A DNA stretch of 39,216 nucleotides, from positions 1-39,216 of the IMG/VR virus record IMGVR_UViG_3300036832_001431. One strand, written 5' to 3'. Numbering within the stretch: position 1 is the first letter of the stretch; each line of letters opens with the position of its first letter. Shown here one piece after another: positions 6,100 to 20,701 of the stretch. The stretch comes from a virus. The translations under genes and the position numbers were made by a program. Under the pieces are notes generated by a model. That model saw nothing but the letters and a program-made list of their open reading frames with translations, ran no database searches and was not told the origin of the DNA.

Positions 6100-7998
6100 A
6101 TGAACCGGGCGTATAGCGTCTTGCACGTCAAGGCCGCCAATCCTGACCTCCGGGTGATTACCGGCGTGGCCTCGACACCGACACCCGACCGACTCGGAGA
6201 CATTGTCGAGCCCCTCGGGATGTCGTTTAAGAATCCGGTCCCGCTCCTCCTGTACCACGACACGAAGAAGCCGGTCGGCACGGTCAAATTTTTTCCGCCG
6301 ACGAAGGACGGTCTCGAGTTCGAGGCCTCGCTGCCGACGATTGACGAACCCGGCACCCTGCACGACCGAGTCGAGGAGGCCTGGCAATCGATCAAGGCCG
6401 GCCTCCTCGCCGCCGTGTCGATTGGATTCCGGGCCATCGAGGAAGCCTGGATGAACGACGCCGCGGCGTATCGATTCATCAAGACGGAAGTCCTCGAGCT
6501 CTCCCTCGTGACGATTCCCGCGAACCAGGATGCGACCATCGAAACGATCAAACGTCTCGACCAGGTCCATCTGCCGCCGGGCGCTACCGGCACCGTTCAC
6601 CGACCCGGCGCTTCGGGTACTCCCGTCGTACGCGTCCAGCGAGGCGCGACCGCTATGACCATTCCAGACCAGATCAAAAGTTACGAAGCCACGCGCGCCG
6701 CCGATGTCGCACGCCAGGCCGCGCTGATGCAGACGGCCGCCGACGCCGGCACGACCCTCGATGCCGCGCAGGGCGAGGAGTACGACACCCTCGGTGCGAA
6801 GGTGAAAGCCGTCGATGCGCATCTCGTGCGCCTGCACGAGCAAGAGCAGCTGAACATCGCGAGGGCCGTCGCCGTCACCGGGCCGGCCGACCCGAATGCC
6901 GCGGCCGCCGAACGGCGCGGCGTCGTCATTCAACTCGCGCCGAATCTCCCGAAGGCGACCGGCTTCACCCGGTACGCGCGCGCGCTGATCATGTCGCGCG
7001 GCAATCTGATGCAGGCCGCCGAGATTGCCAAGCAGTGGCGCGATTCGACGCCCGAGGTTGAACTCGCGCTGAAGGCCGCGGTCGCCGTCGGCACGACGAC
7101 CGATGCCGTGTGGGCCGGTCCCCTGGCGCCGATGAAACCGTTGCTCACGGAATTCCTCGAGCTCCTGCGGAACGCGTCGATTGTGGACCGCGTGCCCGGG
7201 ATGCGTCACGTCCCGTTCAACGTCTCGGTCGCCGGGCAGACCGGCGGCGGCACGTACGGATGGGTCGGGCAGAACGCGCCGAAACCCGTGAGCGCGCTCG
7301 CCTTCAATGCGCAGACCCTCGGCATCGCGAAGTGCTCGGGCATCATCGTCATCTCGGAGGAACTCGCGCGGGTCTCGACGCCGAGCGCCGAAGACATCAT
7401 CCGGCGCGACATGATTGCCGGCATCGCGGCCTTCCTCGCCACGCAGTTCACCGACCCGACGCTCGCGCCGGTCGCAAACGTGTCGCCGGGTTCGATTACC
7501 AACGGCGTCGCCCTCACGGCCAGTGCCGGCGCGACGCCGGCCAATGCGCGGACGGACATCCTGACGCTCGCGGGCAAGTTGGTCGCCGCGAATCTGACGA
7601 CGGCCGGGGCGGTCCTCCTGATGTCGGAGACGAATGCGCTCGCGCTCGCCGGCGCACTGAATCCGCTCGGGCAACCGTTGTACCCGGGCCTGAACGCGCA
7701 AGGCGGCACGGTCCTCGGGTTCCAGGTCATCACGAGTCAAGCGCTCGGCGTGAACGTCATCCTGGTCCAGGGCAACGGCATCCTGATCGCGGACGATGGC
7801 GGCGTCGAAATCGATGTCTCGCGCGAGGCCTCGGTGCAGATGGATTCGGCCCCGGACAATCCGATGCTCGCGACGACCGTCATGCAGTCGCTCTGGCAGA
7901 ACAACCTGGTCGGCCTCCGCGCGGACCGCTTCATCAACTGGAAGCGCGCGCGCCTGGCGTCGGTCCAGTACACACAGCAAACGTACTTGGCCGCGTAA
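6100..7998 (+). CDS. HK97-type prohead protease / major capsid protein fusion
   Basis: 632 aa. Residues 1-155 are an HK97 (U35-like) prohead protease, with catalytic His in 'LLYHDTKKPVGTV' (H53) and Ser in 'AAVSIGF' (S107), followed by 'ELSLVTIPANQDA'. Residues about 186-245 look like the scaffolding delta region of a capsid precursor ('QIKSYEATRAADVARQAALM', then a helix ending near 'HLVRLHEQEQ'). Residues about 260-632 are the HK97-fold capsid ('GQTGGGTYGWVGQNAPKPVS', 'VISEELARVSTPSAEDIIRR', 'QSLWQNNLVGLRADRFINWK'). An in-frame ATG at 6655 could start a separate capsid protein. The protein builds the procapsid shell and then cleaves itself during maturation. Confidence 0.92.
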   Translation: MNRAYSVLHVKAANPDLRVITGVASTPTPDRLGDIVEPLGMSFKNPVPLLLYHDTKKPVGTVKFFPPTKDGLEFEASLPTIDEPGTLHDRVEEAWQSIKAGLLAAVSIGFRAIEEAWMNDAAAYRFIKTEVLELSLVTIPANQDATIETIKRLDQVHLPPGATGTVHRPGASGTPVVRVQRGATAMTIPDQIKSYEATRAADVARQAALMQTAADAGTTLDAAQGEEYDTLGAKVKAVDAHLVRLHEQEQLNIARAVAVTGPADPNAAAAERRGVVIQLAPNLPKATGFTRYARALIMSRGNLMQAAEIAKQWRDSTPEVELALKAAVAVGTTTDAVWAGPLAPMKPLLTEFLELLRNASIVDRVPGMRHVPFNVSVAGQTGGGTYGWVGQNAPKPVSALAFNAQTLGIAKCSGIIVISEELARVSTPSAEDIIRRDMIAGIAAFLATQFTDPTLAPVANVSPGSITNGVALTASAGATPANARTDILTLAGKLVAANLTTAGAVLLMSETNALALAGALNPLGQPLYPGLNAQGGTVLGFQVITSQALGVNVILVQGNGILIADDGGVEIDVSREASVQMDSAPDNPMLATTVMQSLWQNNLVGLRADRFINWKRARLASVQYTQQTYLAA

Positions 7999-8372: not shown

Positions 8373-9809
8373 GTGAACGTCCTCGGTCTCTCGATTACCC
8401 GCACGAAGGCCTCGCCCGGGAATTCATCTGCCCCTCCGGGGAATCAGTCGGCGCTGATGCCGGTCGGGCGTAGCGGCCTCGGCTGGCCGGGGGCGTGGTG
8501 GCCGTACATCCGCGAATCCTTCACCGGCGCCTGGCAGCAAAACGTCTACCTCCGGGCCGACCAGGTCCTCGCGTACTTCGCGGTCTTCGCGTGCGTGACG
8601 TTGATTGCCGGCGACATCGGCAAACTGAATCTGCGACTGGTCGAGCAGACCGATGATGACGTGTGGGAGGAGACCGCGAATCCGGCGTTCTCGCCGGTCC
8701 TCCGGAAACCGAATCACTATCAGACGATCGTCAAATTCCTCGAGCAGTGGCTGATCTCTAAATTGATCTGGGGCAACGCGTACATCCTCAAGCAGCGCGA
8801 CAACCGCGGCGTCGTGAATCAGCTGTACGTTTTGAACTCGGCCCTGGTCCGGCCGCTGGTCGCACCCGACGGGTCGGTGTACTACCAGCTCTCGGCCGAT
8901 TACCTCTCCGAGCTGCCCGACGCCATCACGGTGCCGGCCAGCGAAATCATCCACGACACGATGGTTGCGCTGTTCCATCCACTGGTCGGGGTGTCGCCGA
9001 TTTTCGCGTGCGGCCTGGCGGCGTCCCAAGGCCTCGCGATGCAGAACAATTCGACGCAGTTCTTCACCAACGGCTCGACACCGGGCGGCATGCTCCTCGC
9101 GCCTGGCGCGATTTCCGACACCACGGCGCAGACGCTCAGCAAGTACTGGCAAGACAATTTCTCGGGCGCGAATGTCGGCAAGGTCGCGGTCCTCGGGGAC
9201 GGGCTGAAGTACGAACCGATGACGATGTCGGCCGTCGATGCGCAGATGATCGAGCAACTGAAGTGGACGGCCGAGAACGTCTGCGCGTGTTATCACGTCG
9301 CGCCGTACATGATCGGCATCGGGCCGCCGCCGCCGTACGCGAACGTCGAGCCCCTGGTCCAGCTCTATTACTCGCAGTGTCTGCAAACGCTGATGACCTC
9401 ACTCGAGAAGGCCCTCGATGACGGGCTCGGCCTCCTGAATCCGATCAACGGCACGCAGTACGGCACCGAGTTCGACATCGATGATCTGATCTGGATGGAC
9501 ACGAAGACCCGGTCAGAGGCGGCCGCGAAAGCCGCGGGCGTGCTCTCGCCGAACGAAACCCGCCAGAAGTATTACGGCATCGGGAAGGCCGACGGCGGCG
9601 ACTCCCCGATGGTCCAGCAGCAGTACTATTCGCTCGAGGCCCTCGCCCAACGGGACGCCGCGGACCCGTTCACGAAACCGACGCCGGCCACGCCGCCGCC
9701 GACCGGGACCTCGAGCACGCCGCCGACGCCGCCGCCGCCCTCGACCGAGGCCGGCCTGGCCGAGGCCCTCCGACGGAAGGGGCGCGAGCGCTACCGTGCT
9801 GCCGCCTGA
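8373..9809 (+). CDS. Portal protein, HK97 family
   Basis: 478 aa from GTG 8373. Typical portal features are 'VFACVTLIAGDIGKLNLRL', 'LIWGNAYILKQRDNRGV', 'ASEIIHDTMVALFHPLVGVS', 'FFTNGSTPGGMLLAPG', and 'WTAENVCACYHVAPYMIGIG' in the wing/stem region. The C-terminus (about 430-478) is a Pro/Thr-rich extension. Twelve copies form the ring at one capsid vertex through which terminase packs DNA. Portal downstream of capsid is the reverse of the common HK97 order. The stop overlaps the next gene by 14 bases. Confidence 0.93.
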   Translation: MNVLGLSITRTKASPGNSSAPPGNQSALMPVGRSGLGWPGAWWPYIRESFTGAWQQNVYLRADQVLAYFAVFACVTLIAGDIGKLNLRLVEQTDDDVWEETANPAFSPVLRKPNHYQTIVKFLEQWLISKLIWGNAYILKQRDNRGVVNQLYVLNSALVRPLVAPDGSVYYQLSADYLSELPDAITVPASEIIHDTMVALFHPLVGVSPIFACGLAASQGLAMQNNSTQFFTNGSTPGGMLLAPGAISDTTAQTLSKYWQDNFSGANVGKVAVLGDGLKYEPMTMSAVDAQMIEQLKWTAENVCACYHVAPYMIGIGPPPPYANVEPLVQLYYSQCLQTLMTSLEKALDDGLGLLNPINGTQYGTEFDIDDLIWMDTKTRSEAAAKAAGVLSPNETRQKYYGIGKADGGDSPMVQQQYYSLEALAQRDAADPFTKPTPATPPPTGTSSTPPTPPPPSTEAGLAEALRRKGRERYRAAA

Positions 9810-10536
9810 CCTCGACCCGGTTGCCGACGCGCTCCTCGATGTCCTCGACCGGGCCCTCGAGCCGGTGCGGGTCGCGATGGCCGGCCTCCAGGCCCGACTC
9901 GAGGCCGCCGAGGCCCGCGGGCGCGACCAGGCGGCCGCCCTGGCCGAGACGCAGTCCGGCCTCGCACGGGCCGCCACGGGGCCGGCAGGCCTGGCCGAGA
10001 CCCTCGAGCGTGGCCTCGCGGCCTACGGCGAACGGGTCGCCGTCACCGAGGCCCGAGTCGTCGCCCTCGACCGGATGGCCGAGACCCTGACGGTCCTGCG
10101 CGAACGGGTCGCCGGACTCGAGGCCCGTCCGCCCGTGCCGGGTCCGGCCGGGACTCCTGGGAAGGACGGCGCGGACGGCCTCGGGTTCGATGACCTCGGC
10201 GCAGACCTCGACACCGAGACCCGGACGCTGACCTTGCGCATGATGGCCGGCGACCGCAGCAAGACCTGGCGCTTCGTCGTGCCCTTCCTGCAGTACGCCG
10301 GCGTCTTCAAGGACGGCACGACCTACGCCGCGGGCGAGTGCGTGACGTGGGGCGGCTCGGTCTGGACCTGCCGAGAAACGACCTCGAGCAAACCCGGCAC
10401 GCCAGGCGCGAAGGGCTGGACCCTGGCCGTCAAGTGCGGCCGCGATGGGAAGGACGGCAAGGACGGCCCGACCGGGCCGGCCGGCCCACGGGGCCGCGGC
10501 TTCGAGGAAACCGTCGATGCACTGAGGGCCCGGTAA
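9796..10536 (+). CDS. Coiled-coil, carbohydrate-binding and collagen-like accessory protein
   Basis: 246 aa from GTG 9796. Residues 1-115 are a long Ala/Leu/Glu coiled coil. 'PGPAGTPGKDGADG' (about 115-128) is a short collagen-like run. Then comes a beta domain with 'YAGVFKDGTTYAAGECVTWG' and 'GSVWTCRETTSSKPG', the usual pattern of a CBM5/12-like carbohydrate-binding module. A second Gly-X-Y run ('GRDGKDGKDGPTGPAGPRG') follows. Such proteins beside portal genes in proteobacterial and actinobacterial prophages are thought to be trimeric surface fibres. The position suggests attachment to the head or neck, which is inference. Confidence 0.75.
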   Translation: MLPPDLDPVADALLDVLDRALEPVRVAMAGLQARLEAAEARGRDQAAALAETQSGLARAATGPAGLAETLERGLAAYGERVAVTEARVVALDRMAETLTVLRERVAGLEARPPVPGPAGTPGKDGADGLGFDDLGADLDTETRTLTLRMMAGDRSKTWRFVVPFLQYAGVFKDGTTYAAGECVTWGGSVWTCRETTSSKPGTPGAKGWTLAVKCGRDGKDGKDGPTGPAGPRGRGFEETVDALRAR

Positions 10537-10946
10537 TGGCGCTCGTCACCCTCCAGCAGGCCGTCGATCATCTGCTCTTGCCGATACAGCTCGACACGAC
10601 GCCGCCCGACCCACGCCAGAACGACCTCGCGCTGAAACTCGCTGCGGCCGAGGCCATCATCCTCGGGTATCTGAAAACATATCCGGTCGAATGGGTCGAT
10701 GAAACGACGACGCCGGCCGATGTCCAGGCGTGCATCCTCCTGCAGTTGACCGAGCTCTATCGATTCCGCGGCGACGACCCGCAGGACCAAGGCGCCGCGC
10801 AGCATCATTCCGCGGCCGACCCGGGCCAGATGTCGCAGCTCTCGCCGCACATCACGAATATCCTTCGACGCCGGCGCGACCCGGCGCTCGCCGGCGGCGG
10901 GCCGCCGAACACGCCCGCGCCTGTCCCGCTGCCCTCGAAGGCCTAA
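10536..10946 (+). CDS. Head-tail connector (gp6-like)
   Basis: 136 aa from ATG 10536 (TAATG overlap). 'MALVTLQQAVDHLL', 'NDLALKLAAAEAIILGYLKT', 'TPADVQACILLQLTELYRFR' is the all-helical pattern of HK97 gp6/SPP1 gp15-type adaptors that dock beneath the portal. The Arg/Pro-rich C-terminus is probably flexible. A longer frame starting at 10338 is a shadow of the collagen-like gene. Confidence 0.85.
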   Translation: MALVTLQQAVDHLLLPIQLDTTPPDPRQNDLALKLAAAEAIILGYLKTYPVEWVDETTTPADVQACILLQLTELYRFRGDDPQDQGAAQHHSAADPGQMSQLSPHITNILRRRRDPALAGGGPPNTPAPVPLPSKA

Positions 10947-10949
10947 CCG

Positions 10950-11327
10950 ATGCCAGGGTCGCCGATTCCCACCGGGCGCCGCGCGTTTCATCTCGTGCGG
11001 GTGCAGAATCCGACGCCGACGCCGGCCGGCGGCGATTATCAGGAGACCTTCGCGGACGCCGTGCCGGTGTATTGGTTCGTTGCCATCGACGAACTCGCGG
11101 GCGGCGGCCAGGAGCAAATCAAATCGCTCGAGGGTGTCGTCCTGACGCAACCGAGTCTCACCATCACCGGCGCCTATCGGGCCGACATCACGACGGCCTC
11201 GCGCATCCTCGATGACCAGGGCCGCGTGCTGCACGTCATCTCGGTCGCGTCACCCGAGGCGCGGCAGCGCGAGCTGGTCTGCACCTGTAGCGTCATCACG
11301 ACCGAGACGGCCGGAGCGACTCGATGA
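10950..11327 (+). CDS. Head-tail adaptor / head closure protein
   Basis: 125 aa, beta-rich: 'YWFVAIDELAGGGQEQ', 'GVVLTQPSLTITGAYRADIT', 'RILDDQGRVLHVISVA', 'ELVCTCSVI'. This matches the SPP1 gp16 / phage head-tail joining pattern, with the conserved 'I.v.yr.dit...ri...gr.f.I..v' layout and position after the connector. It forms the ring that seals the portal channel and presents the docking surface for the tail. Its stop overlaps the next start (ATGA). Confidence 0.75.
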   Translation: MPGSPIPTGRRAFHLVRVQNPTPTPAGGDYQETFADAVPVYWFVAIDELAGGGQEQIKSLEGVVLTQPSLTITGAYRADITTASRILDDQGRVLHVISVASPEARQRELVCTCSVITTETAGATR

Positions 11328-12625
11328 CGGTGCACGCCGCCGATTCCTCGGCCATCGATAACGCGTTGATTGCGAAACTCGGCGCCGATGCCGCGCTCCT
11401 GGCGCTGATGCCGAACGGCGTGTATTACGGGCTCGGGCCTCCGGGCGCGACTCGGTACGTGACGGTCACCATCGACCAGCAGACCGACGTGCCGGCGTTC
11501 GGGGGCCGAGTGCAGGAGGATACGCAGTACCGCATCGTGGCCTCGGGCCTCTCGACCGCGAATCCCGATTGCCAGGGCGCGGCGTTGCGCATCGATGAAC
11601 TGCTCGAGGACCAACCGTTCGCGGTGGACCAGTTCACCTTCGCGACGATGTACCGAGTGCGGCGCATTCGGGAGACCCGGCCGGACCTGACGAATCCGTC
11701 GGTCCGCTGGCATCTCCGGGGCGGCGTGTATCGCGTGGTGTTCGCGGTCGGCGTGCCGGCGCCGTCGGCCCTGGTCTGGACGGAAGCCGCCGATGCCTTG
11801 CCGGCGCCGAATGTCGGCGGCGCGGCCGTCGTGGTCGGTGGGCGCATGGTCGTGATTGGCGGCGCGGATACGCCGTCGGTTGTGACCTCGAGCGGCGGCC
11901 CGTGGAGCTCGCTCGGCGTGACCGGATTACCGGCACTCCGCTACGGCGCGGCCGTCGTGAACGGGGCGACCGTGTTCTATTGCGGCGGTGACGACCCGGA
12001 CGGCATACCCGGCCGCAAGGTGTTTCAGTCGCTCGACCTCTCGACCTGGACGGAAGTCGGGACCGACGCGCTCCCGTTCGCGCTGGACGAACATGCGGCC
12101 GTGCCGTTTCACGGGGCGCTCGCGATTATCGGCGGGTACAACGAAACGACGGGCGCCGCGTCGGCCTCGGTCCTGACGTCTCCGGATGGCGCCGTCTGGA
12201 CGGAGCGCGCGAACGCGTTGCCCCTCGGCCTCTACGGTCACGCGGCCGTCGTGCTCGATGACCAAATCCTGATCATCGGCGGCGCGAATGACGACGGCGG
12301 CCCCGAGGTGTACCAGCAGACGATTTATGCGTCGATGGACGGCGGCACCTGGAGCCGTATCGGCTCGCTCCCGATTGCCCTGGCGTGGCACTCGGCCGCG
12401 GTCCTGGCCGGCGTGATCTACCTCTTCGGCGGGTTCAATGCCACCGACTACAACGGGACGGTCTACGCCTCGAGCGACGGCGGCGTGAGCTGGGGCAGTG
12501 TGGGCCCGTATCCGGTCGCCTCGGACGATGGCGCCGGCGTCGGGTATCAGGGCGCGCTCTGGCAAATCGGCGGAAACATCGACGGCACGCCGAGCGCGAC
12601 CGTCTTCGTCTCGGCGGTCGCATGA
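11324..12625 (+). CDS. Tail-terminator-like domain fused to a six-blade Kelch propeller
   Basis: 433 aa. Residues 8-142 resemble the DUF3168/tail terminator fold ('IDNALIAKLGADAALLALMP', 'VPAFGGRVQEDTQYRIVASG', 'SVRWHLRGGVYRVVFAV') and are clearly related to the gene at 13059. Residues about 150-433 are six Kelch repeats, each with a small-residue strand then 'xxIGG' (for example 'GGAAVVVGGRMVVIGG', 'GHAAVVLDDQILIIGG', 'WHSAAVLAGVIYLFGG'). Tail terminators cap the tail tube at the head junction as hexamers; Kelch propellers usually bind proteins or sugars. The fusion would hang a propeller around the neck. I know of no standard family with this architecture. ATGA overlaps occur at both ends. 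Confidence 0.82.
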   Translation: MTVHAADSSAIDNALIAKLGADAALLALMPNGVYYGLGPPGATRYVTVTIDQQTDVPAFGGRVQEDTQYRIVASGLSTANPDCQGAALRIDELLEDQPFAVDQFTFATMYRVRRIRETRPDLTNPSVRWHLRGGVYRVVFAVGVPAPSALVWTEAADALPAPNVGGAAVVVGGRMVVIGGADTPSVVTSSGGPWSSLGVTGLPALRYGAAVVNGATVFYCGGDDPDGIPGRKVFQSLDLSTWTEVGTDALPFALDEHAAVPFHGALAIIGGYNETTGAASASVLTSPDGAVWTERANALPLGLYGHAAVVLDDQILIIGGANDDGGPEVYQQTIYASMDGGTWSRIGSLPIALAWHSAAVLAGVIYLFGGFNATDYNGTVYASSDGGVSWGSVGPYPVASDDGAGVGYQGALWQIGGNIDGTPSATVFVSAVA

Positions 12626-13062
12626 GCGAGAACAAACTGGTCTTCACCGGGCTCGAGGCCTTCAAGGCCGACCTGCGGAATCTCCCGAGAGACCTCACCG
12701 GCGAGGCCGCGCACATCGTCATCGCGCACGCCAATCGGGCCGCGCTCGCCGTGCGGCAGCAGTACCACATCGGCAAGACCGGCGACCTGGTCGAGCATGT
12801 CGTCGTCAATCCACTCGAGGCCTCCGAGTTTGCCGCGGTCGCGAAGGTCGTGAGTAATTCCAATCTGGCGTTCATCTACGAGGAAGGCACCGTCCGTCGG
12901 GATGCCGTCAAACGACACGGCAAGCCGATGAAGAAAAAAGCGAATCGCGGGAGCTCACCGAAGCATCCGATTTTCATTGCCGAGATGATGCGCGAACGCG
13001 CGGCGATGGAGGACGACCTCGCCGACATGATGCGCCAGCACGGCCTCACGGTGCATCGATGA
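12622..13062 (+). CDS. HK97 gp10-like neck/tail completion protein
   Basis: 146 aa from ATG 12622 (ATGA overlap). 'LVFTGLEAFKADLRNLPRDL', 'RAALAVRQQYHIGKTGDLVE', 'FIYEEGTVRR', and the late 'KHPIFIAEMMRERAAMEDDL' are typical of HK97 gp10-like proteins, with a Pro/Phe motif near the C-terminus and basic loops between. They act at the head-tail interface. It sits between the two related tail-terminator genes. Confidence 0.8.
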   Translation: MSENKLVFTGLEAFKADLRNLPRDLTGEAAHIVIAHANRAALAVRQQYHIGKTGDLVEHVVVNPLEASEFAAVAKVVSNSNLAFIYEEGTVRRDAVKRHGKPMKKKANRGSSPKHPIFIAEMMRERAAMEDDLADMMRQHGLTVHR

Positions 13063-13535
13063 TCGGTGTCCTGACTCGGCCGGCCGCACCGACGACCCTC
13101 ATCGATAGCGGGACCATCGAGGCCGCGCTCGTGGCGTTGCTGAACGCCGACCCGGTCCTCGTGACGCTGCTGCCGGATGGCGTGTACGAAGATTGGGCCG
13201 CCGACAACGGGGACGCCTTCGCGGTCGTGCGGCTGCTGACCGAGCGCGACCTGGCCGCCTTCGGCCGACGCGTCGGCGAGGATTACCGCTTCCTCGTGTT
13301 GGTCTCGACACTCGAGGCCGACATTGCTGACGCCGCGGCCAGGCGTATCGAGGCCCTCCTCGATGACGGGACGCTCGAGGTCCCCGGGTGCACGGTGCAG
13401 GCGATGTACACCGAGGCCCGGGTCAGCGACGACGAACCGGACGGCGTCACGCCAGGCCTGACCTGGCAGCATCGCGGCGGGCAGTATCGCGTGCAGGTTG
13501 CGCTGCACGCCGGGGACCGAACTCAAACGGGGTAA
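13059..13535 (+). CDS. Tail terminator / tail completion protein (DUF3168-like)
   Basis: 158 aa. 'IEAALVALLNADPVLVTLLP', 'DLAAFGRRVGEDYRFLVLVS', 'AARRIEALLDDGTLEVPG' and 'LTWQHRGGQYRVQVAL' match the tail-terminator fold, with the canonical 'WxHRGGxYRV' end. It lies directly before the major tail protein, the normal place. It is a paralogue of the N-terminal domain of the Kelch-fused protein at 11324. It probably forms the hexameric ring ending tail-tube growth. The ATGA overlap couples it to the gp10-like gene. Confidence 0.8.
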   Translation: MIGVLTRPAAPTTLIDSGTIEAALVALLNADPVLVTLLPDGVYEDWAADNGDAFAVVRLLTERDLAAFGRRVGEDYRFLVLVSTLEADIADAAARRIEALLDDGTLEVPGCTVQAMYTEARVSDDEPDGVTPGLTWQHRGGQYRVQVALHAGDRTQTG

Positions 13536-13550: not shown

Positions 13551-13973
13551 ATGATTCTCACCGGACGGTACGGACAAGTGAAGTACGACGACACCGGCGG
13601 CTCGACGACCGTCGCGATTGCCTCCCTGAAAAGTTGGAAGATGTCGCAGAAGACGAACAAGATTGACGTGACGTGCTTCAACGACCCGAACAAAAAGTAC
13701 GTCATGGGTCTGAAGGACATCAGCGGGTCCGTCGCCGGATTCTGGGACTCGAGCGAGCTCACGCTCTTCAAGGCCGTCGACGCCTCGACACCGGGGACGC
13801 TCGAGCTCGTACCCAACGAGCAGGAAACCGTCGGGACCGCGCCCGGAAAAATTCCGTCATGGACGGGCCTCGCGTACCTCGATGTCGATATCGACACGAC
13901 CGTGGACGGCGCACCGGCCGTCGCGGGTGACTTCGTCGCGGCCGGTCCCTGGGCGATGAACCTGATTCCGTGA
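13551..13973 (+). CDS. Major tail (tube) protein
   Basis: 140 aa. 'MILTGRYGQVKYDDTGG', 'IASLKSWKMSQKTNKIDVTC', 'KDISGSVAGFWDSSELTLF', 'VAGDFVAAGPWAMNLIP' form the compact beta-sandwich pattern of short tail-tube proteins (the 'G..G.v.f...' start, 'v..w.....~dvTcF' and 'F.G..dis' elements). Subunits stack as hexameric rings to make the tail tube. Position between tail terminator and chaperone genes supports this. The stop overlaps the next gene as GTGA. Confidence 0.85.
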   Translation: MILTGRYGQVKYDDTGGSTTVAIASLKSWKMSQKTNKIDVTCFNDPNKKYVMGLKDISGSVAGFWDSSELTLFKAVDASTPGTLELVPNEQETVGTAPGKIPSWTGLAYLDVDIDTTVDGAPAVAGDFVAAGPWAMNLIP

Positions 13974-17191: not shown

Positions 17192-18112
17192 GTGCGCACG
17201 ATCAATCCTCGGCGCATCGCGAAGTCCGGCACCTTCGTGCTCGCCGGCCGAGGCCTGTTCGGGAACCCCACGCCGCCGTGGGCTTATACGACATCGACGC
17301 CCGGGTACTGGGAATACACGACGGGCGCGGCCTCCTCGCCGGTGCCGGCGTCCGACCTACAGCTCGACTTCGACGGCGCCGCGAAGTTGACGGTCGATGG
17401 CGTGACGTACACCGCGGACGGCGCGCCGGCGGGCTTCACGCCGACGACGAATCTGAAGGGCCATATCGACTTCGGGCACATCATTTTCTCGGGGACGACG
17501 TGGGGCATCGAATGGACGGTCAAAATCTGCAACGTCACGCAGGGCCCGAGTTTCATTAACACGACGACGGGCGCGCTGACGCCGGTGCCGTTGCCGGACG
17601 ATACCTCCTGGTTTGACATGCATACGCTGCAGGGCAACCTGCACGGGAATACCGGGACCTTCTATTCCGGCAGCCCGACGACGTTCCGCCTGACCGACTA
17701 CGCCACGAACATCTACATCGACGGCAATTACGTCATCGAAATGTTTTGGTGGGTCCTCCCCGACACGACGGCGTGCGGCGAGCAGAACACGACGACGCCG
17801 CAGGACAGTACCTCGCACCTGGTCCTCGCCGCCGAGGCCCCTGCGGGATATCAGGCGTTTAATCCGAGCGACCCGAGTGACGCGCCGACGCCCGTCATCA
17901 CGTCCATCGAGCCGAACCACGGGTACGCCGGCACGACCGTTAAAATTTGGGGCACCGGATTCGGGGACGGCGCGACCGTCACCTTCGACGGCGCCGCGGC
18001 GACGGCCATCACGGTCGTCTCGAAATATCAGATTACCTGCACGGCCCCGACGCACGCGCTCGGGGGCGCGGTCGTCGTCGTCACGAATCCCGACGGCGTC
18101 TCGAGTACGTAG
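17192..18112 (+). CDS. Tail protein with incomplete C-terminal IPT/TIG domain
   Basis: 306 aa from GTG 17192. Residues 1-220 are beta-rich and Thr/Gly/Asn-rich, without a family I recognise; position after the tape measure suggests a distal tail protein. Residues about 228-306 are an IPT/TIG immunoglobulin-like domain ('PVITSIEPNHGYAGTTVKIW', 'GTGFGDGATVTFDG', 'GAVVVVTNPDGVSST'). The domain stops one strand early at TAG 18110-18112. The next gene is in the same frame and begins with the missing 'TYTY' strand. The two may therefore be one protein made by readthrough. Confidence 0.78.
   Translation: MRTINPRRIAKSGTFVLAGRGLFGNPTPPWAYTTSTPGYWEYTTGAASSPVPASDLQLDFDGAAKLTVDGVTYTADGAPAGFTPTTNLKGHIDFGHIIFSGTTWGIEWTVKICNVTQGPSFINTTTGALTPVPLPDDTSWFDMHTLQGNLHGNTGTFYSGSPTTFRLTDYATNIYIDGNYVIEMFWWVLPDTTACGEQNTTTPQDSTSHLVLAAEAPAGYQAFNPSDPSDAPTPVITSIEPNHGYAGTTVKIWGTGFGDGATVTFDGAAATAITVVSKYQITCTAPTHALGGAVVVVTNPDGVSST
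18110..18112 (+). other. In-frame amber codon inside an IPT/TIG domain
   Basis: TAG followed by GCG then ATG (18116), all in one frame. Removing the stop joins 'VTNPDGVSST' to 'AMNPTYTYDDH', which matches the end of an IPT domain. No clear ribosome site precedes ATG 18116. Either leaky termination, reinitiation, a nonsense mutation or a base-call error would explain it. Confidence 0.7.
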
Positions 18113-18115
18113 GCG

Positions 18116-20701
18116 ATGAATCCGACTTACACGTACGACGACCACGTTCTCGACATCTCGAGCGTGACGCCGAACACCGGGCCGACGGCCGGCGGCACGC
18201 CGGTGCAGATTGTCGGCCGCGGCTTCCTCGACCCGGCCGGCGGCACGACGGCCCCGACCCCGACCGTGACCATCGGCGGCGCCGCGGTCTCGGTCTCGAG
18301 TGCGGGCGACACCTTCGCGCAGTTCGTCACGCCGGCGCACGCCGCGGGCGCGGTCGATATCGTCGTCACGGCGTCCGATGGCGTGGCCGTCACCCTGACC
18401 AATGGCTTCACGTACGCCGACGCCGCGCCGCCGCACGACCTCCGCTTCCGCTCACCCTCGGGCGGCGCGAATTCCCTGGCGCGCACCGAGAACACGCCGC
18501 CGCAAATCACGCAGAGTCTCGGCCAACACGACACGGCCGGATTCTCGACGCCGCAGCAGCCCGTCGGCCTCGAAGGCGTGACCTGGTCGGCGTTCGGGCA
18601 GGTCCTCTTCGAGGGGCCGATTACCAAGACGACGGCGCGCACCGACGGCCGCGAGAAGCTCGAGGTTTGGGATGTCGAGGCCCTCGGGCAATCGTTCCTC
18701 CTCTCGAAGCGCAACGCGACCGGGTCCTGGCACTCGGTCTCGGCCACGACGATTCTGACCACGCTCCTCGCGCAGTACGCCCCGGGATTTCAGTCCTCCA
18801 TCGAGGGCGGCCTGCCGCTGATCACGCTCGAGGCCGACGGGTCGCAAGATTTATGGTCGGTCCTCATCAACGCGTGCGAGCTCGCCGGGGCGCACGTCTT
18901 CGTGGCCGGCACGACCGTGCACGCGTTCTCGCTCGATTCCCACTACGACCCACCGGGCGCCGTCACCGACGGGAATCCGGATCTGCTCTGGCCGGAAATC
19001 GGCCAGGCCGTCACCTATCAGCTCGAGTACTCGCAACTGATCAACTCGGTCACCGTCCGCGGCGCCGAGGGCATCGTGGCGACGGTCGAGGATGCCGCCT
19101 CGATTGGGCAGTACGGCCGGCTCGGTGGGCCGTTGATTGACGACAACACGCTGACGACCCTGGACGAATGCACGCGCCGCGGGCAGACGATTCTCAAGCA
19201 GCACGCGCAGCCGGTCCCAACCGCGCACTACGCCACGCGGGACCTGAAGACCCGGGCCGGCAAGACGGTCAGTATTTCCACGTCGGTCCCGCACATCTCG
19301 GCGTCCTATCTGATCTCGAACGTCCAGATTGACCAGCTCGAGAACCTGGCCGTCGGGCAGCGCCCGCGGTTCATCGTGACGGCCGTGCCGGCGTGGGCCC
19401 CGGCCATGATGCTCAGTGCCCCGACGACGCGCGTGCTCGAGGCCGCGGTCGATGTGATTGCCGAGAAGAATCAGCAGCCGAGACTCGCCGGCGATGTCAC
19501 GAGTGACGCCGGCGGCCGCACGACGATTCCGCCCGCGTCGATTCCGGCCTCGAAGCTGGCCGGGTGCATCGACTCGACCAAGTTGACGCCGACGCCCGTC
19601 GTGCCCGGGTCGTACGGCGGCGCCTTCAGTCGCGAGCTCGAGCCGGCCGCGCAGACCTTCACGCCGAATCATAAAATCGTCGCGTTCTCGGTCGATGCCG
19701 CCGGCCGGATTACCGCGGCCGCGGAGGACCCGGTGCCGGCCATCAAGGCCGACGGCGCCGAACCCTTCACTGCGAATCAGTCACTCGGCGGCCACGCCCT
19801 CACGAACGCGGCCGACCCGACCAACGCGCAAGATGTCGCGACGAAGGCGTACGTCGATGCGCATGCCGGCAGCGGCGGCGGCGCGGGCGGCGATATCCGG
19901 TCGGATGGCACCGTCCCCTTCGCGGCCAATGAATCGATGGGCGGCCATGCCCTCGTGAACGTCGCCACGCCGGTGAATCCCACCGACGCGGCGACGAAGG
20001 CGTACGTCGATGCGCGCACGCCGCAGAACGCCAGTGTCAAGGCGTACCGGGGCACGGTCCAGACGCTGACCTCCGGCACCGAGACGCCGATTGCGATGAC
20101 GGCGACCAGTTACGACTCGGCCGGGTTCTGGTCCTCGAGCCAACCGACGCGGCTGACGGTGCCGGCCGGATTCGCGGGTCGCTATCAGGTCCTCGGGCAG
20201 ATTGGCCTCGCGCCGTTTACCGCAACCGGCACCGTCGTCATCCGCATCAAGGTCAATGGCGTCCTGGCCGCGACCCACGGCTTCAACGCGACGGCGCTCG
20301 CGGATGCCGTGCAGGTCGATGCGCAGCTGAATCTCGCCGTCAACGATTACGTCGAACTGACGACCGTCGTCACCGACAGTGCCGGATCGACGCACGACAC
20401 GGTCGGCGGCGCGACCGAGACGTACGTGAGCATGATCCTGAGCGTCGGCGGCGTCGGCGGCACCGGCGGCGGGACCGGCGGCGGCAGCGGCACGCGGTAC
20501 GCCGGCGAAATTCCGACGGGCACGATCGACGGGACGAATCGCACGTACACGGCCGCGCACGCGTACCTCGACCTGGAGGTCTACGTGAACGGCCTGGCGC
20601 AAACCCCGGGCATCGATTACGACCCGATGACGCCGACGACGTTTGCGTTCAACCTGCCGCCGCTGCCCGGGGATACCGTGATGATTTCCTACGGCGTCTG
20701 A
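18116..20701 (+). CDS. Tail tip/hub protein with IPT domain and fibre modules
   Basis: 861 aa. Residues 1-105 hold the end of one IPT domain and a complete one ('DISSVTPNTGPTAGGTPVQI', ending 'LTNGFTYAD'). Residues about 106-470 resemble hub/tip proteins ('FGQVLFEGPITKTTARTDGR', 'LWSVLINACELAGAHVFVAG', 'HYATRDLKTRAGKTVSIS'). Two fibre repeats follow at about 553-582 and 604-630 ('LGGHALTNAADPTNAQDVAT', 'KAYVDA'). Residues 640-775 look like a C1q/TNF-type jelly roll, and about 795-861 a small beta domain ('LEVYVNGLAQTPGIDYDP', 'GDTVMISYG'). It is probably the central tip plus an anchored fibre. Confidence 0.78.
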   Translation: MNPTYTYDDHVLDISSVTPNTGPTAGGTPVQIVGRGFLDPAGGTTAPTPTVTIGGAAVSVSSAGDTFAQFVTPAHAAGAVDIVVTASDGVAVTLTNGFTYADAAPPHDLRFRSPSGGANSLARTENTPPQITQSLGQHDTAGFSTPQQPVGLEGVTWSAFGQVLFEGPITKTTARTDGREKLEVWDVEALGQSFLLSKRNATGSWHSVSATTILTTLLAQYAPGFQSSIEGGLPLITLEADGSQDLWSVLINACELAGAHVFVAGTTVHAFSLDSHYDPPGAVTDGNPDLLWPEIGQAVTYQLEYSQLINSVTVRGAEGIVATVEDAASIGQYGRLGGPLIDDNTLTTLDECTRRGQTILKQHAQPVPTAHYATRDLKTRAGKTVSISTSVPHISASYLISNVQIDQLENLAVGQRPRFIVTAVPAWAPAMMLSAPTTRVLEAAVDVIAEKNQQPRLAGDVTSDAGGRTTIPPASIPASKLAGCIDSTKLTPTPVVPGSYGGAFSRELEPAAQTFTPNHKIVAFSVDAAGRITAAAEDPVPAIKADGAEPFTANQSLGGHALTNAADPTNAQDVATKAYVDAHAGSGGGAGGDIRSDGTVPFAANESMGGHALVNVATPVNPTDAATKAYVDARTPQNASVKAYRGTVQTLTSGTETPIAMTATSYDSAGFWSSSQPTRLTVPAGFAGRYQVLGQIGLAPFTATGTVVIRIKVNGVLAATHGFNATALADAVQVDAQLNLAVNDYVELTTVVTDSAGSTHDTVGGATETYVSMILSVGGVGGTGGGTGGGSGTRYAGEIPTGTIDGTNRTYTAAHAYLDLEVYVNGLAQTPGIDYDPMTPTTFAFNLPPLPGDTVMISYGV

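Follow-up and report, generated by a model that had tools for sequence, protein, structure and literature searches.

Tail terminators are treated as one-copy proteins that form the sealing ring of the tail. RcGTA has a stack of stopper, terminator and tube rings with <19% identity to one another (PMC7296036). Larger terminators with additional domains have been described (PMC11784142, PMC12886913), and carbohydrate-binding modules are known at the neck of 936 phages (PMC6669499). Paralogous terminators within one siphophage were not found in the papers searched. The neck described here comes from an uncultured phage and encodes two terminators, one of which runs on into a Kelch propeller.

The window comprises a whole IMG/VR virus record of 39,216 bases, the neck run of which starts at the portal gene (Table 1). 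Following the naming in the T5 paper (PMC11784142), "terminator" denotes here the family of TC1 and TC2, and "tail completion" the gp10 family. The gp10-like gene is flanked by the fused gene on its 5' side and by the TC2 gene on its 3' side. Every gene junction from HCP to TC2 is an ATGA overlap, and in both G+C and GC3 the Kelch part resembles the neighbouring genes. The gene after the portal (9796-10536) encodes collagen-like repeats together with a CBM5/12-like match just below the cut-off. Upstream, the 632-residue major head protein (6100-7998) has further matches, in its N-terminal part, to families of head maturation proteases (phrog_80), which suggests a protease-capsid fusion. Downstream, two adjacent tail genes (17192-20701) encode IPT/TIG domains, the second of which continues into fibre-like sequence. 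Devosia and Sphingopyxis genomes contain relatives of the window's portal (51-54%), a loose pointer only to Alphaproteobacteria as the host group.

Table 1. Genes and domains in the neck region of the window
Feature	Position	Strand	Remarks
Portal	8373-9809		start of neck run
Adaptor-like gene	about 10530-10946		
HCP, head completion (stopper-type) protein	10950..11327	+	Pfam Phage_HCP 1.2e-5; phrog_25 head closure Hc1 3.3e-5
Fused gene, TC1 + Kelch	11324-12625	+	433 aa
TC1, first terminator domain	11324..11758	+	residues 1-145 of fused protein; 36% identical to TC2
Kelch six-bladed propeller	11759..12625	+	C-terminal part of fused protein; PF24681 1.7e-23
gp10-like tail completion (Neck1) protein	12622..13062	+	phrog_5 E=3e-6
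TC2, plain terminator	13059..13535	+	158 aa; PF11367 2.5e-5; pLDDT 92; RcGTA terminator 2.3e-6
Tail tube (major tail) protein	13551..13973	+	phrog_10528 4.1e-9; 73% identical in L251, 62-64% in L107

The TC1 domain (residues 7-142 of the fused protein) shares 36% identity with TC2 over 136 residues (71.6 bits, E=1e-19), well above what chance would give. A first-pass annotation had claimed a common terminator domain for the two genes beside the gp10-like gene, and both its gene coordinates and the motifs it quoted were found as described. TC2 scores just over the curated cut-off of PF11367 (Tail_completion_gp17; 2.5e-5), and the fused protein falls under it (E=1e-3). A profile built from 54 members of the family, searched against all solved chains, gave the RcGTA terminator Rcc01690 (6tba_4A) as its top match (E=5e-4). 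The AlphaFold2 model of TC2 has a mean pLDDT of 92; among its Foldseek matches, chain 6tba_4A of the RcGTA particle ranks first (E=2.3e-6), and the list also includes the monocin cap, T5 p142, lambda gpU, T4 gp15, the pyocin collar and other neck proteins. Residues 9-142 of the fused protein are mostly modelled at pLDDT >90, with helices and strands in the same order as in TC2. The predicted structures show a tail-terminator fold in both TC1 and TC2, and most of the residues conserved in the family are kept in each. Both genes are located between those of HCP and the tail tube, as expected of terminators: the place of TC1 matches the related contigs L251 and L107, and the place of TC2 matches most relatives.

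In the C-terminal part of the fused protein, PF24681 scores 83.5 bits against a cut-off of 50 (E=1.7e-23), several more Kelch motifs are matched, and six blades were counted, which agrees with the six Kelch repeats of the first-pass annotation. Its model has structural matches to six-bladed Kelch propellers (E about 1e-10) and aligns with closed six-bladed propellers across residues 148-433 (Z about 22). Structure prediction, which the annotation had put forward as a check, therefore gave a terminator fold in the N-terminal domain and a closed propeller at the C-terminal end. The propeller is modelled at a pLDDT of only about 50-75, a moderate confidence that arises because one sequence alone supports it; the Kelch protein of L250 aligned to the wrong domain and was left out. 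The linker between the last terminator strand and the propeller is only about six residues long, and the N-terminal part of the fused protein consists of the terminator domain and this short linker, with no BppU-like N-terminal domain or coiled coil. Among the matches of the propeller model, sialidases reach the same Z as Kelch folds. The Kelch domain has Asp-box-like motifs at four blade joints and five Arg, and the Pfam matches of the fused protein include no sialidase family. No close homologue of the propeller was found in searches, nor was a close relative of the whole fused protein in viral contigs; cultured phages gave only weak Kelch matches. No relative of TC2 was matched in cultured phages, and no bacterial genome carrying a relative of TC1 was found. 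In phiERICV, a Kelch domain is present in a structural protein at the fibre position.

Relatives were collected by scans with TC2, the portal, a motif pattern, the TC1 pair and the tail tube pair as queries, and neck genes were called in about 300 loci by a script with family profiles. Exactly one terminator was called in about 196 distinct loci; two were present only in the window and in L107 (2 of about 198), the latter being the same contig as L214 and L253 and counted once. In L107, the copy that directly follows HCP shares 65% identity with TC1, is unfused and is followed by two accessory genes (169 and 495 aa). The second L107 copy precedes the tail tube gene; it shares 41% identity with TC2, along with a longer N-terminus and a two-residue gap. 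The two terminators thus occupy the same places in both contigs, after HCP and before the tail tube gene. Given this pair in L107, whose first copy is unfused, the doubling is real rather than an assembly error, and it is older than the Kelch fusion. The portals of L107 and L251 are only 24-25% identical to that of the window; the pair of terminators therefore follows the tail module and is found with at least two head types. Codon-position identities between TC1 and its L107 partner (0.76, 0.79 and 0.52) look like those expected under purifying selection. Decay of one terminator copy is not supported, since conserved residues are mostly kept in both copies and the codon pattern of TC1 appears selected. 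The gp10-like gene of L107 (9932-10351, minus strand) is relocated between the tail tube region and a tail assembly gene.

In L251, the contig with the closest tail tube gene (73%), the genes run HCP, terminator, gp10 and tail tube, with the single terminator in the place of TC1. In the trees, TC1 groups with the first L107 copy (support 100/99), and the two fall inside a clade with L017, L019, L020, L021, L215, L216 and L217 (100/96 and 100/91 in two trees); the portals of these phages, where available, are 67-73% identical to that of the window, and the phages of the clade are its closest relatives by portal and capsid. TC2, which sits on a long branch, groups together with the second L107 copy and L078 (99/90 and 97/83). 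The gene order of L251 and the terminator trees suggest that the Kelch-bearing TC1 is the resident terminator and TC2 the gained extra, the reverse of the first-pass annotation, which had taken the propeller-bearing copy as the added one. Duplication within the lineage followed by fast change of TC2 is a possible alternative origin: uniting the four copies of the window and L107 in one clade costs 24 log-likelihood units and is not rejected (AU p=0.15), nor is a clade of TC1 and TC2 alone (AU p=0.245). The gp10 tree is weak and does not separate out a cassette origin of gp10 plus TC2. The head and tail modules of the window have different nearest relatives.

The scans for the same fusion in other phages returned no second terminator-Kelch protein, so that the fusion is known from one contig, and showed relatives with other modules at the neck. 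C-terminal additions of >100 residues occur in five distinct terminators (window, L135, L053, L181 and L231), the next longest addition being 32 residues. In three contigs, HCP is C-terminally fused to a LamG/concanavalin-type domain (L041:6581-7585, L042:3331-4332 and L044:6957-7961), which matches PF13385 with an E-value of 3.8e-23 in L041. Glycosyltransferase-like genes lie between the terminator and tail tube genes of L004, L008, L013 and L084 (PF13524, E=4.6e-16 in L084). The terminator additions, the LamG-bearing HCPs, the CBM5/12-like gene of the window and these glycosyltransferase-like genes suggest that phages of this group use the neck to mount surface modules that can be exchanged. 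The 936 phages do likewise, through different docking parts. Elsewhere in the neck region, the adaptor genes of L051, L067, L072 and L084 have an internal insert, and the tail tube proteins of L039, L041, L042, L044 and L078 have a C-terminal addition of about 70 residues.

We propose, at a probability of roughly 0.48, that the fused gene encodes a neck collar protein, in which a TC1-Kelch ring lies by the stopper with its propellers pointing outwards, TC2 caps the tube and the ligand is likely a host glycan. By analogy with solved family members, the TC1 domains would assemble into a hexameric ring at the head-tail joint, adjoining HCP. The Kelch domains would then occupy the exterior of the ring, displaying up to six propellers that may bind a component of the host surface, most likely a glycan. 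TC2, which is encoded beside the tail tube gene, would cap the tube; with two terminators, one could keep the sealing function and the other would be freed as a display platform. In L107, the position following the first terminator is occupied by separate accessory genes, and in the window by the in-frame Kelch domain. As the RcGTA rings stack at <19% identity, separate rings of TC1 and TC2 could do so as well, an arrangement that we would favour over a mixed ring. The fuller scheme, two stacked and non-equivalent terminator rings of which the resident became a propeller-bearing collar adhesin and the second took over tube capping, is tentative, with the odds against it. Of the arrangements raised in the first-pass annotation, a neck collar appears the most plausible form of display.

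The other arrangement it raised was a mixed ring, in which the fused and the plain terminator enter a single hexamer and propellers are present at some positions only. Gene doubling would here play the part that frameshifting plays for the decorated tube proteins of other phages, and ring proteins with decorated and undecorated versions are indeed known (PMC6669499). The common fold of TC1 and TC2 and their retention of most family-conserved residues would allow such co-assembly. The copies are, however, just 36% identical, each is nearer to the terminators of other phages (53-65% for TC1), and they stand at different operon places in both the window and L107. Mixed rings could thus form, but are disfavoured and in our view unlikely. 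Alternatively, the Kelch domain might contact the capsid or tail and stiffen the joint, with no part in host binding. Such a role is proposed for the neck decoration proteins of phage 812, which span ring junctions; necks that have lost them are often deformed or broken (PMC12886913). The added module is, however, not conserved: Kelch is present in the window only, L107 has none, and the neck proteins of relatives carry LamG or other domains. An exchangeable ligand binder therefore suits the pattern better, and we regard the brace as rather improbable.

Two further explanations concern the origin of the locus. An exchange in the neck region may have left two terminators, one of which is now dispensable for assembly; the nearest relatives do differ between TC1 and TC2, as they do between the head and tail modules. 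Such a relic is given little probability, since L107 has retained both terminators alongside a different head (portal 25%), both copies mostly keep their conserved residues and TC1 looks selected. The fused gene might also be a chimera produced by assembly, given that the fusion is seen in one contig and the scans gave no second copy. This is very improbable: the independent contig L107 has both terminators in the same places, the composition stays uniform and the genes join by clean ATGA overlaps. The first-pass annotation had listed a chimera among the outcomes that would speak against it; none of those outcomes came up, with the Kelch fusion itself represented by the one contig.

If the neck collar reading is correct, two terminators are kept and one of them serves as a display platform, so that a core part of assembly was freed for a new role. 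No neck fibres are known in this phage group, and its neck would then offer a second point of contact with the host, and an exchangeable one. Relatives provide intermediate states (single terminator; doubled terminators with accessory genes; doubled terminators with fusion), which makes the idea testable.

Compared with known systems, the terminator family of the window shares its fold and neck-operon place with the siphophage and GTA terminators (RcGTA Rcc01690, lambda gpU, SPP1 gp17 and T5 p142), and with Rcc01690 also a sequence profile. Those terminators are normally present in one copy and the siphophage members are single-domain; none in the papers searched bears a Kelch domain (the one mention of "Kelch" that was checked proved to be an author's name), in keeping with the annotation, which knew of no standard neck family with a terminator-Kelch fusion. 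The larger terminators of contractile systems (phage 812 gp99 and PVC16) likewise have a terminator core with an additional domain; however, that domain is sheath-related or a repeat of the terminator fold, whereas the window has a Kelch propeller and its relatives look like non-contractile GTA/siphophage types. The neck passage structure of lactococcal 936/P335 phages carries exchangeable binding modules at the neck, matching the role proposed here, but docks via a BppU-like N-terminus and a coiled coil, whereas the fused protein would dock via its terminator domain. The nozzle and muzzle rings of T7-like and crass phages (PMC10172136) are hexameric tail rings with propeller-bearing subunits, like the ring proposed for the window; their propeller helps to form the channel at the end of the tail, whereas the Kelch domain of the window is fused to a putative head-proximal ring protein of a long-tailed phage.
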